Source: Schlesneria sp.
Lineage (GTDB): Bacteria > Planctomycetota > Planctomycetia > Planctomycetales > Planctomycetaceae
Length of the DNA: 64,000 bases
NCBI GenBank assembly: GCA_028291515.1
Contig: JAQGHU010000078.1
Location: 1-64,000, forward strand
Direction: 5' to 3'
Shown: piece after piece, positions 6,607 through 13,211 of the stretch
Numbering within the stretch: the stretch's first letter is position 1
How the letters are laid out: each line of letters begins with the position of its first letter
Position numbers and translations under genes: made by a program
Notes under the pieces: model-generated
Seen by the model: the letters and a program-made list of their open reading frames with translations, nothing else
The model's database searches: none
Told to the model about the DNA's origin: nothing

Positions 6607-7377
6607 TTAGCCACGCATGATAAACCACTCGCGTAGCCGGATTCTCACCAGCAGATCATTGAGTGCCGGAGCACCTGAGGGAACTTCTGGTAACCGACTT
6701 TCTTCGTGGGCTTCCTGCAGGACGGTGCGTAGGCGTTCGTATTCGCGGTGGTGAAACTCCAGATCTGCTTGTTCGAGACAGCCCTGCTCTGGACCGCCTG
6801 TCTTGCGAGCGATCAGGTCCGGAATGTAAGGGAGGCGTGCAGTCTCGTTCAGGTGATTGAGATTCGCTTCGATCTCGCCCGTTCGCATCAGATGAATGCC
6901 CGTCAACAAGACTCGATAGACGTACAGCAGCGGCTTCACGTGAGGCGGGTCGGCCTTTTGGAAGAGCTTCCACTGCGTCTCCGCGAAACCGAAGTAGTGA
7001 TGAGCGTGATGTCGCGTGATGCAATCGGCCGCGATCGCCTTCAGTTCTTCGTGTTCGGGTGATGTCTGAATCACCAGTGGAGACAGCAACTGCTCCAGCA
7101 CATAGCCGTTCTTGCGCAGCATCAGCCCGAAGAACTTCTTCACGTCGTGCGTGACGAGATCGATTTCGAGGCCATCGTGAATGCCAGACTTCTCGACGGT
7201 CTCATTCGCTTCGACCAAACCAACAACGTGGCGTAGCGGGAGCAGGTGAGCGCCTCGCAGGTCGAAGTCAGAATCAGGCGACGGGAAGCCGTACAGATGC
7301 GCGCCACTGATCGTGGCGAAGAGCAGCGGGTATGGATGTTCGGCGATTTGGCGATGCAGTCGTGGATCGATGTTCAC
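6607..7377 (-). CDS. RlaP-type nucleotidyltransferase (short form)
   Basis: A 256-residue polymerase-beta-fold nucleotidyltransferase of the RlaP/YcgL type, a family named for its link with RNA ligases. The active site is near the N-terminus: SGAHLYGFPSPDSDFDLRG with metal ligands D37 and D39, and a third acidic residue probably in GLEIDLVTHDVKKF. The helical C-terminal part (LYVYRVLLTGIHLMRTGEI) matches the family. The start is a GTG that overlaps the stop of the upstream paralogue as GTGA, so the two are translated together and may work as a pair. They probably act on RNA ends or tRNA-like RNAs, as two tRNA-type genes lie close by; that is inference. Confidence 0.82.
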   Translation of the reverse strand: MNIDPRLHRQIAEHPYPLLFATISGAHLYGFPSPDSDFDLRGAHLLPLRHVVGLVEANETVEKSGIHDGLEIDLVTHDVKKFFGLMLRKNGYVLEQLLSPLVIQTSPEHEELKAIAADCITRHHAHHYFGFAETQWKLFQKADPPHVKPLLYVYRVLLTGIHLMRTGEIEANLNHLNETARLPYIPDLIARKTGGPEQGCLEQADLEFHHREYERLRTVLQEAHEESRLPEVPSGAPALNDLLVRIRLREWFIMRG

Positions 7378-8324
7378 GGTAGTTCCTCGGCCAAGGCGGC
7401 TCGGCGAGCCTTCAGTAGTAGTGCATTGGCGCGTTCGTAGTCCGGCCGCTCCGGCAGCGCGGTTTTGTGCAGAGCCCGATCAAAGTCGGCATGCAGATGC
7501 AATCGCCACTTCTCCGTTTCTTCCCAGGCAAGTTCACCGCGCTTGATCGCCAGCAGTTGCTCGCGATGCTCGTCGACTCGGACGGGGACGAACCCCTGCT
7601 CCAGCACGTGGATTCCGGAAATCAGCAGGCGAATCAGGTGCATGACATGCTTCCATTTCACCTGACCCTGATTCCGCAGATCGGACTGCATCTTCTTGAA
7701 CTGCGACATGACGTACCCGTTGTAGGTCTGGTACACCAGCCGCGACAAGAAGGCCGATCGCATCTGCAGCAGTTCGTCCGCCAGAGGCGTCGTCTGTTCG
7801 ATCAAAGGGGTGTAGAGGCACTCCAGCACGTTCGGGTTCGCTTTAAGCGCCAGGACCAGAAACCGTTGCAGTTCCCAATAGTGTTCCTGAGTTTCCTGGT
7901 TTTCAAATTGCTCGGGAACGCCGTACAGCGACCAATGCATCTCGGCGGTCGGCAGATAGATGCCTCGGTAATCGGTATCGGATTGCTCGTCGTCCAAACC
8001 GAACGCTCTTGATCCGACGACACAGCGAAAGATGACGCGAGCGTAAAGATCACTGCGATTGGTCGTGATGTTCGCGTCGCCGATGTCACCCTCTTTGTAG
8101 TGAGCCAGCATCACAATCTCTTCGCGACGCAGCGGCTCTTCAATGCCGTCCAGGAAACGAACACGATACGCGTGATCCAAGTCTTGCGGCGCACGGATCA
8201 CGACGCCGACCGAGCCACGCGGATGTAGCGTTCGACTGCCAGTGCCAACGACATCCCGCAACGAAACGACTTGCGTTCCGATGGAAAAGATCAGTTGCGG
8301 GTTCTGGTGGACTCGTTCGGTCAT
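7374..8324 (-). CDS. RlaP-type nucleotidyltransferase with extra N-terminal beta domain
   Basis: A 316-residue paralogue of the downstream gene. The catalytic motif is VVGSRAFGLDDEQSDTDYRG (GS at 104-105, metal ligands D116 and D118), followed by YWELQRFLVLALKANPNVLE and the helical end typical of the family. Residues about 15-75 form an added small beta domain (RGSVGVVIR, AYRVRFLDG, LRREEI) that looks like a KOW/SH3-type nucleic-acid-binding barrel. I start at the ATG at 8324; the frame is open to 8399 but those codons lie in a dispersed CACGGA repeat and are not protein-like. First gene of the two-gene operon. Confidence 0.82.
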   Translation of the reverse strand: MTERVHQNPQLIFSIGTQVVSLRDVVGTGSRTLHPRGSVGVVIRAPQDLDHAYRVRFLDGIEEPLRREEIVMLAHYKEGDIGDANITTNRSDLYARVIFRCVVGSRAFGLDDEQSDTDYRGIYLPTAEMHWSLYGVPEQFENQETQEHYWELQRFLVLALKANPNVLECLYTPLIEQTTPLADELLQMRSAFLSRLVYQTYNGYVMSQFKKMQSDLRNQGQVKWKHVMHLIRLLISGIHVLEQGFVPVRVDEHREQLLAIKRGELAWEETEKWRLHLHADFDRALHKTALPERPDYERANALLLKARRAALAEELP

Positions 8325-8345
8325 TGGATGCCAAGCAGAAGAGGT

Positions 8346-8378
8346 GGCCACGGATCGACACGGACGAACACGGATTGG
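8346..8378. repeat. Single copy of the CCACGGAT/ACACGGAT repeat
   Basis: GGCCACGGATCGACACGGACGAACACGGATT is a half-copy of the element that forms a perfect inverted repeat at 13294-13479. It sits just upstream of the RlaP operon, which argues against longer N-termini for that gene. Confidence 0.65.
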
Positions 8379-8540
8379 GAGATCGACCGGGACGTCCACT
8401 AGTCGAAATGCCGAGTGGTGGATCTTTGACAGAGGATAAGCAGGAGAGGTTCATTTCGCATCTGATTTCCGTGCAAACGCGAACCTCCCTCACGGTACGC
8501 GTGTCTTCCAGAGGCGTGCTGATGATGAGCCCGCAGACTT

Positions 8541-8614
8541 GTTCTCGCGGAGTAGCCTGGAATGCTCGCCACCCTGTCACGGTGGAGACAGGGGTTCAAA
8601 TCCCCTCGAGAACG
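8541..8614 (+). tRNA. tRNA-Asp (GTC)
   Basis: Folds as a full 74-base cloverleaf: acceptor GTTCTCG/CGAGAAC, D stem GAGT/GCTC, anticodon stem CCACC/GGTGG with loop CTGTCAC (anticodon GTC, Asp), 4-base variable loop and T arm AGGGG-TTCAAAT-CCCCT, with discriminator G. No CCA is encoded. Bases 8-9 are CG instead of the usual TA, and the acceptor stem is unlike common bacterial tRNA-Asp. Together with its place between the RlaP operon and a DUF6602 gene this suggests an accessory tRNA, not the housekeeping copy. Confidence 0.85.
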
Positions 8615-8624
8615 CTCGTAATGA

Positions 8625-8693
8625 CGTGGGTGGGCCAGCGCTCAGCGGAGTTTCATAAGCTCCGACAGCCAGGTGCGACACCTGGACCCACTA
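8625..8693 (+). ncRNA. tRNA-Met-like RNA with reduced D arm
   Basis: Ten bases after the tRNA-Asp. Acceptor GTGGGT (8626-8631) pairs with ACCCAC (8686-8691); anticodon stem GGAGT/GCTCC with loop TTCATAA (anticodon CAT); T stem CCAGG/CCTGG with loop TGCGACA. The D region is only about 13 bases and forms no normal stem, position 55 is G instead of T, and the total is 69 bases. It may be a decayed tRNA-Met or a tRNA mimic. T-rich sequence follows. Confidence 0.6.
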
Positions 8694-8752
8694 TTTTCTA
8701 GAGTTGGCCGGGGTTTGATCATTGACCCACGCGTGAGAATCATCCGCTTGAC

Positions 8753-9505
8753 TCAGGACTCGTCCACCTTGTATGGCACCAGATGGAACCCCATGTTCGG
8801 CCTTCCGCGTTTCGCACTCAGAATCTTCAAAGAGTTCAGGAGACCGGCAAATACCATAAGGACTTCATGATACGGGAGGTGGGATTGGACGCGATGACAT
8901 AAGGCTTGCTCCTCACCGAACGTCCACGAAGGTTTTCCGGGAACGCAAATCACCTGGAGATAATCGTGGATAGCAATTTGGAGTTCAGTGGCCACACTTT
9001 CCACACGATCACCTTCTGACCCGGCGAGATCACTGCGGAATCCAAACAATAGGTTGAGTGGCAAAATAGCGGGTTCAGCGCCCCAAAAATGATTACCATC
9101 CGAGAGAGGCGGCGGTCGATAAATTACCATCCTCTTGAAGTCTTCGGTCCGCCTTATAGCTTGTCTAACCGATTCACGAGTAAGCTTTGATTTCACTTCA
9201 ATCACGGCAACGACAGACTCTATGAAGTAGATGCCCGCTCCACGTGCCGAGTACAACGGACGAAAGATACTGTCATCCCAAATGATGATGTCGCATTGAC
9301 CACTCTGCTGTCCTTGGCAATCGACAACAACCCCTGTCCCAGCTCGGTATGGCGGCATGAGGAGAGGCTCAATAAATGATTCAATCAGTGACTCCCGGAG
9401 TACGCCTTTTACGCCGTCGTGTTCAACGTCACCAAGTCCTTCAGCGATCGATATGATTCGGTCGAGGGATCGACGAAGCAGTTGGACGGTGACGGTGTTT
9501 TCCAT
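8753..9505 (-). CDS. DUF6602 protein with PD-(D/E)xK-like residues
   Basis: A 250-residue protein that I recognise as DUF6602 from GVLRESLIESFIEPLLMPP, GTGVVVD, SGQCDIIIWDD and IESVVAVIEVKSKLT. The D72 ... E103-V-K105 arrangement is that of a PD-(D/E)xK nuclease core, so nuclease activity is a reasonable inference. DUF6602 genes are often found in accessory and defence neighbourhoods. It is transcribed toward the tRNA-like genes and the RlaP operon. The C-terminal half (PPLSDGNHFWGAEPAILPLNLLFG and after) has no motif I can name. Its codon use looks less GC-rich than its neighbours, which fits horizontal transfer. Confidence 0.75.
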   Translation of the reverse strand: MENTVTVQLLRRSLDRIISIAEGLGDVEHDGVKGVLRESLIESFIEPLLMPPYRAGTGVVVDCQGQQSGQCDIIIWDDSIFRPLYSARGAGIYFIESVVAVIEVKSKLTRESVRQAIRRTEDFKRMVIYRPPPLSDGNHFWGAEPAILPLNLLFGFRSDLAGSEGDRVESVATELQIAIHDYLQVICVPGKPSWTFGEEQALCHRVQSHLPYHEVLMVFAGLLNSLKILSAKRGRPNMGFHLVPYKVDES

Positions 9506-9606: not shown

Positions 9607-10821
9607 TCATGACTCGGGATCCAGCAGCTGGATCACGTGACGCACGGTATATGGTTTCTTTACAAGGCCGCTGGCACGGGCTGAGTTCCATTGCATCATG
9701 CAGACGTGGTTGGATGTGGCGAGGATCACGGGGTCGCCAATGGCTTCGTTCAGGAAGGCTGATTTGCGGGCGAGGATCTCGCGGGAGTTTTCTGGTTTCT
9801 GGATGTTGTAGACTCCGCCCGAGCCGCAGCAGTCGCGGGCCATCGGGGCGAGTTCCCAATTGTAGCCTGTCGCATTCAGGACATTGGTCGGAATGCCGGG
9901 CATCTTCTGGCCGTGGATGAGATGACATGGCAGATCAACGTAAACGCGGGCTTTGTCGTCGCGCCGTGGACGCGACTTGAGTCCGATCTCTCCCAAGAAA
10001 CTGAGGACATCACGCACGGGGATATCGCCTGGTAGAGCTTTCCCCAGTGCCAGGCCGCATCCCGAAGAGTTGCTGACCACCGCGTCGACATCCAACAAGC
10101 CAAACGCACGACGATTTCTGGCCTGCAACTCTTCGATGCCGCCTAAACCGGTATGTTCCTGAAACGCGCCGCAACACCCCTGCTCCGGCGGGATGATCAC
10201 TTGCACGTTGTTCTCGATCAGGACTCGCACGGTCGCGAAGTTGATTTCGCGGAACAGCGATTCCATCAGGCAACCGGTCAGAAAGGCGACTCGCGGGCCA
10301 GTGGGACGATGTCGCTCCATTAGTTGACGTGTGTACGAAATGGTCGATTGAGCCGCGGCCGGGTTCCCCGCGAAGAGGAACCGATGCGGCAGCAAGCCCA
10401 TTTTTCGCAGCAGTCGCGCCGGCAGCATCGCCAGGTTGAAGAGCGATTGGTGAGACGCGAGCTTGGATGCCAAGCGCAAGGCAAAGCCGGGATTCGATCG
10501 CTTGGTAGCGACGTGCTCGTGCCGCACCTTCTCGAAGATCGTTCCATACGGGACGTTGGCCGGACAGGCCGATTCACAGGCGAGGCAGCCGACACATTCC
10601 GACGTGTAGAAGTCGGTCCACGTATCTTGAGGTAGCCGCCCTTCGGCCTCTTCGCGCCACAATCGCAGGCGGCCGCGCGGCGAATTGTTTTCGTCGCCCG
10701 TCAGTTTGTAGGTGGGACAGACTTCCAGGCAAAAGCCGCAATGCACGCAACTAGCCAGCAAATCCAGGTCATTGGCGAGTGGGGGACAGGCGGGAGCGGA
10801 GGGTTGGTTCGACGTGGTCAC
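9607..10821 (-). CDS. glcF: Glycolate oxidase iron-sulfur subunit GlcF
   Basis: A 404-residue electron-transfer subunit of glycolate/lactate dehydrogenase. Two 4Fe-4S clusters are bound by CVHCGFCLEVCP (C25, C28, C31, C35) and CVGCLACESACP; two CCG domains follow with GCCGAFQEHTG and DCCGSGGVYN, the latter for a further cluster. I start at the GTG at 10821, which overlaps the stop of the upstream FAD subunit as GTGA; an open frame further upstream lies inside that gene. It passes electrons from the FAD subunit to the quinone pool. Confidence 0.92.
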   Translation of the reverse strand: MTTSNQPSAPACPPLANDLDLLASCVHCGFCLEVCPTYKLTGDENNSPRGRLRLWREEAEGRLPQDTWTDFYTSECVGCLACESACPANVPYGTIFEKVRHEHVATKRSNPGFALRLASKLASHQSLFNLAMLPARLLRKMGLLPHRFLFAGNPAAAQSTISYTRQLMERHRPTGPRVAFLTGCLMESLFREINFATVRVLIENNVQVIIPPEQGCCGAFQEHTGLGGIEELQARNRRAFGLLDVDAVVSNSSGCGLALGKALPGDIPVRDVLSFLGEIGLKSRPRRDDKARVYVDLPCHLIHGQKMPGIPTNVLNATGYNWELAPMARDCCGSGGVYNIQKPENSREILARKSAFLNEAIGDPVILATSNHVCMMQWNSARASGLVKKPYTVRHVIQLLDPES

Positions 10822-13211
10822 GAAATGTTTGCTTCCTGCACGAGACGTGTAATCCAGTCCGTTTCCAACGCAGAAGGAGCGGGCGGCGACAGATGACGCG
10901 ATTGCCAATCGCCGCCGATCGATTCCAACGGCTGCGCGTGGTGAGTCACTAATTCACGGACGCGATCTGATTTGCTGGCGTTTTCCGGGAGATACCCGTG
11001 GACTACGCCGTTGTAGCAGAGCGTGACACAGCGAACTCCAGTTGTGGCAAGCGAGTTAGTCAGTGCGACGACATGCTCGGGCGACGACTTGAACGCGAAG
11101 TCAGGCAGGCCATCCAGCGGTGCGGCGACGTTCGGCTCGATCCTTAATGTCAGCGATTGCGAAGTGGCGAACTTCGAGAGGAACGCGTCGACCACCGGAG
11201 CTTCAGCAGCCGGACAATTGATGACGATTCGCAAGCGACGTGTGTTTCCTTCGGCCAGCAGATCGATCGAGTCGAACCAGTGCATCCAATTGTTTTTCAA
11301 CAACAGGGGAACAGCACGCGAGATGGCATCGGCAGTGCCATCCAGCCAATAGATGCTGGTGACGCCGCAATCGGGACGCAGACGAATCACGTAGTCAATA
11401 GGCTCACCAAAGCGGTTGCCGCTCGAGAGGAAGAAGCGAAACAGGTCGTAGCCGGTGGTCGTCTTCACCACTCGTTCGCCGATTCGGACGATGTGCCCGT
11501 TGGGCAGCTTCCAGTTCATGCCGACGACGTTGTCGCAAAATGGTCCGAAGCGAGAGGACGCGGGAGTGTAGCCGGTGGCATCGACATGCTCACGCAGGGT
11601 GGCGTTCGCATCGAGCAGCAGCGGATACCGCAATTTGTGCGCAGCGGCTTGAGCATGGATGTCGGCAGCGGTCGCTGTCGCAGGCAGACAGAGGATGCCG
11701 TCGATCTCGTCGAGGAATGAGACGAAACAACGCGAGCCTGTCGATCCATTTTTCTTGGCACTCGCATCGGGTTGCTGATGCCCATTGGTGTGAGCGCCGT
11801 TCGCGTTGGATGTGGGGTCGAATCTTCGGTCGGCGAAAACCTTGAGCGGATTGAGTTGATGCCGCGCGTTGAAGACCGCGGGGATCGCTAACTGGATTCG
11901 CGTCGTTTCGGGTCCGAAGACCAGCGGCATGTAGGCCGTCTTGTCGTTGCCGATACCGTGCTCGCCGGAGAGGGTTCCACCGACATCGACCACACGCTGC
12001 ATCAGGCGTTTACCAATATGCTCGACTCGTTCCAGTTCACCCGGATTGCGGGAATCGAACAGGAAATTGGGGTGCAGGTTGCCGTCGCCCGCGTGAAACA
12101 CGTTGACGGCTCGCACACCGGCCGCGTCGGCTTCGTCGTAGACCAGTTGCAGCAATTCGGCGAGGGCCCGTTTGGGGATCACCGCGTCCTGCACGACGAA
12201 ATCGGCACTCAACTGCCCCATCAGGCCGCCGGCCGCTTTGCGTGCTTTCCAGAGTTTCTTACGTTGCTCTTCGTCGTCACTGAAGACAACGTCTTTAGAC
12301 CCGGCATCGCGCAAGATTTGAGCGACTGCTTCGACGCGAGCGTCGACCAATTCGGGCGGGCCATCGATTTCAGTCAGCAGCATGAACGAGTCTTTGGGGA
12401 GGCCAACCGCCATCGGACTGTTCTCGACCATCGCCACGCAGCGTGGGTCCATCAGTTCGATCGCGACGGGGAACGACGAATGGACCACCAGCGCGTGAAT
12501 CGCCTTCTCCGCCATGATCAGGTCCGGATAGGTCGCGCGGAAGGTCCAGACCTTGTCGGGCCGCGGCAATGTTCGCAGCCAGAATCGAGTGAACGCGGCG
12601 AGCGTTCCTTCGGACCCGACCATGAACCGCTTCCAATCTTCTCGCCACGCACCGCGGCCTCCCGCGGGACCGCCGAATCGGTGGACGCTGCCGTCGAGCA
12701 GAATCGCTTCGACACCCAATACGTAGTTACTGGTCACGCCATAACGGAAGCAATGCGCCCCGCCAGCGTTCATTGCGACGTTACCGCCCAGCGTGCAAAC
12801 CGGCCCGCTACTCGGGTCGGGAGGATAGAAAACTCCATGCGGCTTGAGCGTCTCATCGAGTTGGTTCAGCGTGACGCCGCATTCGACCTCGCACCAGAAC
12901 CCTTCCTTGCAGATCGTTCGGACGGCACGCAAAGCGGAGGTATGAACAACAACGCCTCCCTGGGCCGCGACCGGCCCACCCGACAGAGATGTCCCCGCGC
13001 CACGCACGCAAATCGGGACGTTCAGTTCTTTGGCTCGCTGCAGAACACGGATCATCTCGTCAGCATCGGCCGGAATGATGACGGCGTCCGGGCGAAACGT
13101 CTTATAACCCAACCCGTCCGCGTCGTAGCCGGCCAGTTGCGCAGGAGAGGTCAGCACGCGGCCGCGCGTGGCACACTGCTTGAGGATCGTGGCGAGTTGT
13201 TCTGAACTCAT
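10818..13211 (-). CDS. GlcD-GlcE fusion, FAD subunit of glycolate oxidase
   Basis: A 797-residue FAD-linked oxidase. Residues 1-460 are a complete GlcD: PCMH FAD-binding part with ICVRGAGTSLSGGPVA and PPDPSSGPVCTLGGNVAMNAGG, and C-terminal cap with HAGDGNLHPN and GGTLSGEHGIG. After a low-complexity linker (SNANGAHTNGHQQPD) comes a second, shorter FAD-binding unit resembling GlcE: FLDEIDGILCLPATATAADIH, GPFCDNVVGMNWKLPNG and RIGERVVKTTTGYD. GlcD and GlcE are separate proteins in E. coli. The gene is first in an operon with glcF (4-base overlap) and oxidises glycolate or D-lactate-type 2-hydroxy acids. Confidence 0.88.
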   Translation of the reverse strand: MSSEQLATILKQCATRGRVLTSPAQLAGYDADGLGYKTFRPDAVIIPADADEMIRVLQRAKELNVPICVRGAGTSLSGGPVAAQGGVVVHTSALRAVRTICKEGFWCEVECGVTLNQLDETLKPHGVFYPPDPSSGPVCTLGGNVAMNAGGAHCFRYGVTSNYVLGVEAILLDGSVHRFGGPAGGRGAWREDWKRFMVGSEGTLAAFTRFWLRTLPRPDKVWTFRATYPDLIMAEKAIHALVVHSSFPVAIELMDPRCVAMVENSPMAVGLPKDSFMLLTEIDGPPELVDARVEAVAQILRDAGSKDVVFSDDEEQRKKLWKARKAAGGLMGQLSADFVVQDAVIPKRALAELLQLVYDEADAAGVRAVNVFHAGDGNLHPNFLFDSRNPGELERVEHIGKRLMQRVVDVGGTLSGEHGIGNDKTAYMPLVFGPETTRIQLAIPAVFNARHQLNPLKVFADRRFDPTSNANGAHTNGHQQPDASAKKNGSTGSRCFVSFLDEIDGILCLPATATAADIHAQAAAHKLRYPLLLDANATLREHVDATGYTPASSRFGPFCDNVVGMNWKLPNGHIVRIGERVVKTTTGYDLFRFFLSSGNRFGEPIDYVIRLRPDCGVTSIYWLDGTADAISRAVPLLLKNNWMHWFDSIDLLAEGNTRRLRIVINCPAAEAPVVDAFLSKFATSQSLTLRIEPNVAAPLDGLPDFAFKSSPEHVVALTNSLATTGVRCVTLCYNGVVHGYLPENASKSDRVRELVTHHAQPLESIGGDWQSRHLSPPAPSALETDWITRLVQEANIS

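Follow-up and report, generated by a model that had tools for sequence, protein, structure and literature searches.

RlaP nucleotidyltransferases, array-type tRNA genes and a NucC-like gene side by side in Schlesneria sp.: most likely a chance neighbourhood

Clustered extra tRNA-type genes have been described in several groups of bacteria. Many Planctomycetes were described in 2016 as having degenerate clusters in which tRNA genes are partly degraded (PMC4807772), the trn operon of Anabaena is described as silent until translational stress sets in and then as an aid to survival (PMC10272220), mycobacterial arrays contain an embedded HNH gene (PMC5966550, PMC12803027), and it has been suggested that tRNA arrays play a part in anti-defence (PMC12803027). 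A second kind of described system is the RNA-repair operon, where RlaP accompanies Pnkp, Hen1 and Rnl and is predicted to refill the nucleotides lost at broken RNA ends ahead of ligation (PMC7824862). We have analysed a stretch of 64,000 nt of Schlesneria sp. (assembly GCA_028291515.1, contig JAQGHU010000078.1, positions 1 to 64,000), referred to below as the window, in which a pair of RlaP genes, two tRNA-type genes and a DUF6602 gene lie side by side. This block very probably unites by chance three elements that have nothing to do with each other, an RlaP repair part, a pair of array tRNA genes and a NucC-like gene, and most likely these features came side by side through genome rearrangement and do not form one machine.

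The genome of the window is named G000 and its contig C6; coordinates without a locus name are those of the window. The features are as follows.

6607..7377, minus strand: RlaP2, polymerase-beta nucleotidyltransferase (PF10127, E 2.6e-54, 185 bits against a cut-off of 23)
7374..8324, open frame to 8399, minus strand: RlaP1, polymerase-beta nucleotidyltransferase (PF10127, E 1.3e-43, 149.9 bits against a cut-off of 23)
8541..8615, plus strand: array-type tRNA-Asp(GTC) (ARAGORN and Rfam)
8625..8693, plus strand: array-type tRNA-Met(CAT)-like RNA (ARAGORN)
8753..9505, minus strand: DUF6602 gene, NucC-like PD-(D/E)XK nuclease (PF20247, E 1.1e-22)
9607..13211, minus strand: two genes, candidates for glcF and glcD (open reading frames)

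The last two genes are presumably those of glycolate-oxidase-like subunits, glcF and glcD. All the members of the block that a preliminary description of this DNA had named are present, as judged by PF10127, ARAGORN and PF20247. The reading frames of RlaP1 and RlaP2 overlap by 4 bases, and the tRNA-type pair sits between RlaP1 and the DUF6602 gene. The block is not a single operon, because its protein genes are read from the minus strand, its tRNA-type genes from the plus strand. The Asp and Met genes are the sole tRNA calls of ARAGORN in the 64 kb, and Rfam finds one tRNA above its cut-off in the window, the Asp-type gene, with 31.6 bits against 29 (the best scores among the matches listed for six genomes are 66-80 bits). 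The Met-like gene falls below the Rfam cut-off, and no other Rfam family exceeds its cut-off in the block. NCBIfam gave no match for RlaP1, RlaP2 or the DUF6602 protein.

Neighbourhood of the RlaP, tRNA and DUF6602 genes among relatives

According to the preliminary description, the tRNA-type RNAs would serve the RlaP proteins as substrates, decoys or sensors and the DUF6602 protein would be a nuclease, all of them parts of one defence or RNA-damage system. The proposal has in its favour that the genes are adjacent in G000 and, minus DUF6602, in its closest relative, G142, and that RlaP proteins are tied to RNA repair. The comparison of 170 genomes of the family, in which related species are counted as independent and P values are guides only, speaks against it. 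RlaP was found in 73 of these genomes, as a close pair in 51 of the 73, and it occurs together with the tRNA type (at least 50 bits) in 34, but the two are neighbours only in G000 and G142. In nine of the 34 genomes they lie far apart on one contig, at 2.0-5.6 million bases in eight and at 0.39 million in G135. Their presence is not associated either, the tRNA type being found in 34 of the 73 genomes with RlaP and in 38 of the 97 without it (Fisher P 0.35).

The same result was obtained from the loci themselves. Among 29 RlaP loci with flanks of up to 1.5 kb, only that of G142 has tRNA genes, and the expectation that the RlaP pair always goes with such genes fell with the other 28, an outcome that the preliminary description had itself named as contrary to its proposal. 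One of eight larger RlaP loci has a tRNA-Ala about 4.4 kb away. In turn, none of the 21 Met-like loci outside G000 has RlaP within about 1.5 kb on each side. An RlaP-tRNA unit was rejected after this comparison of genomes (neighbours in two of 34 genomes, no co-presence), a role of the tRNA-type RNAs as dedicated partners of RlaP was not borne out, and the one-system proposal as a whole appears extremely improbable.

The DUF6602 gene is even rarer, with matches in 15 of the 170 genomes (14 over the cut-off) and none in G142; of three genomes compared, only G000 carries it at this spot, which argues against its being a member of such a system. Its assignment as a nuclease is better supported. 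The protein matches NucC structures (7zgv, 6p7o) over the nuclease core with E 3.2e-9, the core match by which we recognise a NucC-like protein, a D...ExK core can be read in it, and it is the sole match of a defence library in the block (PD-DExK, NucC). It differs from NucC in its Pfam class, DUF6602, and the likeness is one of sequence alone. None of the papers searched mentions "DUF6602".

The gene orders suggest how the block may have been assembled. G142 has the order glcF, Met-like, Asp, RlaP1 and RlaP2, without DUF6602. In a further relative, G139, an Asp gene of the window type borders glcF, and RlaP lies on contig C51. In the simplest reading, array remnants would have been placed by glcF first, RlaP would have arrived next in the line of G000 and G142, and DUF6602 last, in G000.

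The RlaP pair and RNA repair

Both proteins show the nucleotidyltransferase motif G-S/A...D-x-D, with invariant G104, S105, D116 and D118 in RlaP1 (23 aligned sequences) and invariant G25, D37, D39 and D73 in RlaP2 (25 aligned sequences). The relatives align with RlaP1 from the ATG at 8324, yielding a protein of 316 aa that has an extra N-terminal beta-rich stretch. The dN/dS values against G142, 0.030/0.41 for RlaP1 and 0.030/0.54 for RlaP2, fit purifying selection. The predicted structures were poor (mean pLDDT 48.8 for RlaP1 and 65.7 for RlaP2), and a comparison of RlaP2 with solved structures retrieved designed helical-repeat proteins only.

The tie of RlaP to RNA repair, which the preliminary description had named, is supported among the relatives, where the pair adjoins Pnkp, Hen1, Rnl-type RNA ligase, HD-kinase and Thg1 genes. 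Pnkp is present in 30 of the 73 genomes with RlaP and in 13 of the 97 without it (P 6.6e-5), and co-presence was also found with Rnl (P 5.9e-4) and Thg1 (P 0.0036). Within 15 kb of RlaP there is Pnkp in 22 genomes, Rnl in 15 and Thg1 in 10, any of them in 28 of the 73; Pnkp lies within 3 kb in 22 genomes, one of these matches being a short sub-cut-off fragment with a stop, against about 0.09 expected. Pfam confirmed the Pnkp ligase, Hen1_L, RNA_ligase, HD plus AAA_33 and Thg1 domains in the neighbourhoods examined. Part of the relatives, hence, have the ligase or end-healing genes next to RlaP that mark an RNA-repair operon, and in G139 RlaP lies between Hen1 and Pnkp. An R2K-type ATP-grasp gene was also observed in G139, between RlaP1 and RlaP2 (L086:7163-8053). 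This linkage of RlaP with repair genes fits the published prediction of a nucleotide-restoring activity.

In G000 the arrangement is different. The window contig has no match to PF16542, PF09414 or PF04446, so that no ligase or end-healing gene adjoins RlaP there, but the genome holds the following island on another contig.

L114:8739-17765 (contig C63): RNA-repair island with Rnl, HD-kinase, Hen1 and Pnkp genes

Its genes are 68-90% identical to those of relatives and, unlike in G139, no RlaP stands between Hen1 and Pnkp. Two further genes of the island are, to judge by their sequences, candidates for those of an ATP-grasp enzyme and of peptidyl-tRNA hydrolase 2. The earlier observation that no ligase is present, then, holds for the window contig and does not hold for the genome. 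The window pair resembles the RNA-repair operons in its Pfam family, in its intact motifs and in the Pnkp, Hen1, Rnl and Thg1 neighbours that it has in many relatives; it differs from them in being a divergent RlaP pair that stands apart from the ligase island. We propose that the pair provides an RNA-repair system with its nucleotidyltransferase component, that its partner in trans is most likely the Pnkp-Hen1-Rnl island of C63, and that it would restore nucleotides at broken RNA ends before sealing, as has been predicted for RlaP.

Some observations weigh against this explanation of the block as unrelated parts with a repair function for RlaP. RlaP and the tRNA type lie on different contigs in 23 of the 34 genomes that have both, where contig breaks hide the true distance. 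Their neighbourhood has been kept in two species, with RlaP proteins 93-94% identical between G000 and G142, and there may be a local link in this lineage. In 45 of the 73 RlaP genomes, the 15 kb on either side of RlaP showed neither Pnkp nor Rnl nor Thg1, in some of them because contigs are short. Finally, G142 has the RlaP pair without Pnkp and with only a sub-cut-off match to PF09414, and therefore a partnership with a Pnkp-Hen1-Rnl island is not required there.

The tRNA-type genes as members of a scattered array

A search with the DNA of the tRNA pair matched 83 of the 170 genomes, G000 included, in some cases over only 22 bases, and many of the matches fall in long tRNA arrays, such as those of loci L026 (43 tRNA genes), L024 (39), L023 (37) and L073 (31), the last from the same genus. 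In the seven fuller arrays compared, the second Met-type gene follows the Asp gene in the same order, at about 440-560 bases; in L026 the genes between them are Leu, Tyr, Glu, Leu and Met. When assigned to the 43-gene reference array, the window Asp gene takes slot 21 and the Met-like gene slot 27 (Met-b), both with clear margins. The window pair has the homology and the order of array members and lacks the dense run of an array unit, with 2 genes as compared with 31-43 in seven loci of relatives. Both genes are, on these grounds, members of the degenerate planctomycete array kind already in print. With the described arrays of planctomycetes (PMC4807772), Mycobacterium (PMC5966550, PMC12803027) and Anabaena (PMC10272220) they share clustered extra tRNA-type genes in conserved order, but here only two members are left in the window and the array tRNAs of G000 are spread over four sites. 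The window Asp gene is not a housekeeping one in the sense of a sole copy for its anticodon: a second tRNA-Asp of ordinary type lies at C11:19817-19891. The other outcome that the preliminary description had named as contrary to its proposal, ordinary housekeeping tRNA genes, was thus not obtained for Asp.

The Met-like RNA is reduced, with a CAU anticodon, a 6-bp acceptor stem, a 4-bp D stem, a 4-nt D loop and the T loop UGCGACA, whose columns G54, A57 and C58 are invariant. In an alignment of 18 sequences, from which two odd rows were left out, 98.9% of 360 cells are paired and 11 of the 20 pairs have changed on both sides; shuffled controls gave a mean of 4.0 such pairs, and none of 500 reached 11. 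For the Asp-type RNA (37 sequences, no shuffle control) 764 of 776 cells are paired and 14 of 21 pairs show two-sided changes, compensatory changes being found also among G000, G142 and G139. When 392 genomes sampled from the phylum were searched with a covariance model of the Met-like RNA, 22 of them, which belong to families f1 to f4, reached 55 bits or more; the lower-scoring matches include other array tRNAs. Other tRNA genes are present in the stretch in 18 of the 21 Met-like loci outside G000; L131, L141 and L142 have the Met-like gene alone.

These folds bear on the idea that the two genes are nothing more than the debris of an array in decay, devoid of any present function. The planctomycete clusters are described as degenerate and perhaps dispensable (PMC4807772), only two genes are left here and G139 has kept one by glcF, and G000 and G142 also share 86% identity over the 88 bases that precede the Asp gene, so that part of the conservation is due to recent common descent. 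Against this idea, both folds have been kept by compensatory changes, and identity to G142 is 93% in the Asp gene and 99% (68 of 69 positions) in the Met-like gene compared with 54% downstream. We consider it unlikely that the pair is mere debris. Since the fold has been maintained, the two genes are probably transcribed and their RNAs put to use; these could, for example, stand in for other tRNAs or act as decoys during stress.

A search of G000 with the G135 array detected further pieces on contigs C24, C97 and C109, with 14, 3 and 13 array tRNAs, respectively, which together with the two of the window amount to 32 at four sites. By sequence, a single slot is shared, that of Leu-gag; an apparent second duplicate (Ile) was rejected, being a mis-slotted His gene of C97, as the reference array has no His. 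When the members are placed in array order, the two large pieces alternate 11 times, a pattern suggestive of two copies, each of which has lost different members. Their complementarity was rejected as a proof of selection, given that one shared slot against 3.0 expected is not significant (P 0.087).

A further possibility is that the array tRNAs of G000, although scattered, make up a second set in which every member is needed, e.g., under translational stress or tRNA cleavage. The 32 tRNAs with one real shared slot are in line with it, as is the Anabaena array, described as stress-induced and favouring survival (PMC10272220). However, the lack of overlap of the big pieces is not significant, 13 of the 43 reference slots are unmatched in G000, G139 holds duplicates (33 array genes in 27 slots at four sites), and G142 has 17 array genes, with no duplicate. 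A complete second set appears somewhat unlikely, and we retain the explanation of the window pair as members left over from a scattered array and probably still in use.

As in mycobacterial arrays, an HNH gene is embedded in those of the planctomycetes: on C97 it lies between tRNA-His and tRNA-Trp (L105:7795-8388), and the same gene occurs in 13 other genomes, in 14 arrays altogether, nine of which have His and Trp on its two sides. The array DNA of L026 matched 9 plasmid and 73 phage records; in the nine plasmid records and in the 12 of the 73 phage records listed, at most 3% of the query is covered, and no carrier of a whole array was found among these. Within the block, positions 8472-8495 (24 bases, 87.5% identity, E 2.7e-4) match a tRNA-Ser of the G135 array and are perhaps a further remnant; among the matches listed, the search for other tRNA remnants gave weak short matches only, this one being the best.

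Arrays, RNA ligases and TROVE genes

In some relatives the arrays have RNA-ligase and TROVE genes close by, more often than chance would predict, a link that does not appear in the accessible parts of the published array accounts; a search of part of the literature for tRNA arrays with TROVE, Ro60 or RNA ligase gave no planctomycete report among the matches listed. Of 80 genomes, 11 from five genera have a PF09414 ligase within 15 kb of array matches, where about 0.16 would be expected; for TROVE genes the figure is 9 of 77, from seven genera, where about 0.11 would be expected. In G060 and G135 a divergent ligase is embedded in the arrays themselves, that of G135 matching in two frames and perhaps broken, and in L124 and L129, from another family, a ligase is at most 40 bases from the Met-like gene. 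The positions are the following.

RNA-ligase genes in or beside arrays: L030:5400-6182, L073:6578-7248, L080:10790-11569, L124:1589-2380, L129:1614-2282
TROVE/Ro60-type genes a few kb from arrays: L023:5795-7495, L026:7753-9000, L039:1792-3048

In six genomes an SPFH/Band 7 gene was also observed near arrays (L073:2436-3629, L074:13408-14601, L078:9695-10807, L083:7104-8216, L032:9225-10337, L024:9555-9998).

The array loci might be imagined as loci of RNA repair and RNA sensing and not just as sets of spare tRNAs, with reduced, covarying tRNA-like RNAs, accompanied in some lineages by an Rnl-type ligase and TROVE/Ro60, acting as bait or tester for anticodon nucleases, and with the window RNAs as retained members served in trans by RlaP and the C63 island. 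The link runs into counterexamples, as array and partner were not seen close together in 26 of the 37 genomes that have the ligase and in 30 of the 39 that have TROVE. We regard this reading as very unlikely. As to bacterial Y RNAs of the YrlA type, positions 8300-8900 gave no match to a Y RNA family up to E 1, and no TROVE partner (PF05731) was matched in G000 or G142.

We thus maintain that the block is a chance neighbourhood. A plausible-looking system can be set aside, since the relatives do not bear it out, and two real systems are indicated in its place. Since an RlaP pair can be located away from its ligase island, the lack of an adjoining ligase does not point to a new operon. Single members of a degenerate array can retain their fold even as the array becomes scattered, and an odd tRNA gene found on its own may therefore be the relic of an array. 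The association of some arrays with ligase and TROVE genes offers a testable case for the persistence of arrays in these bacteria.

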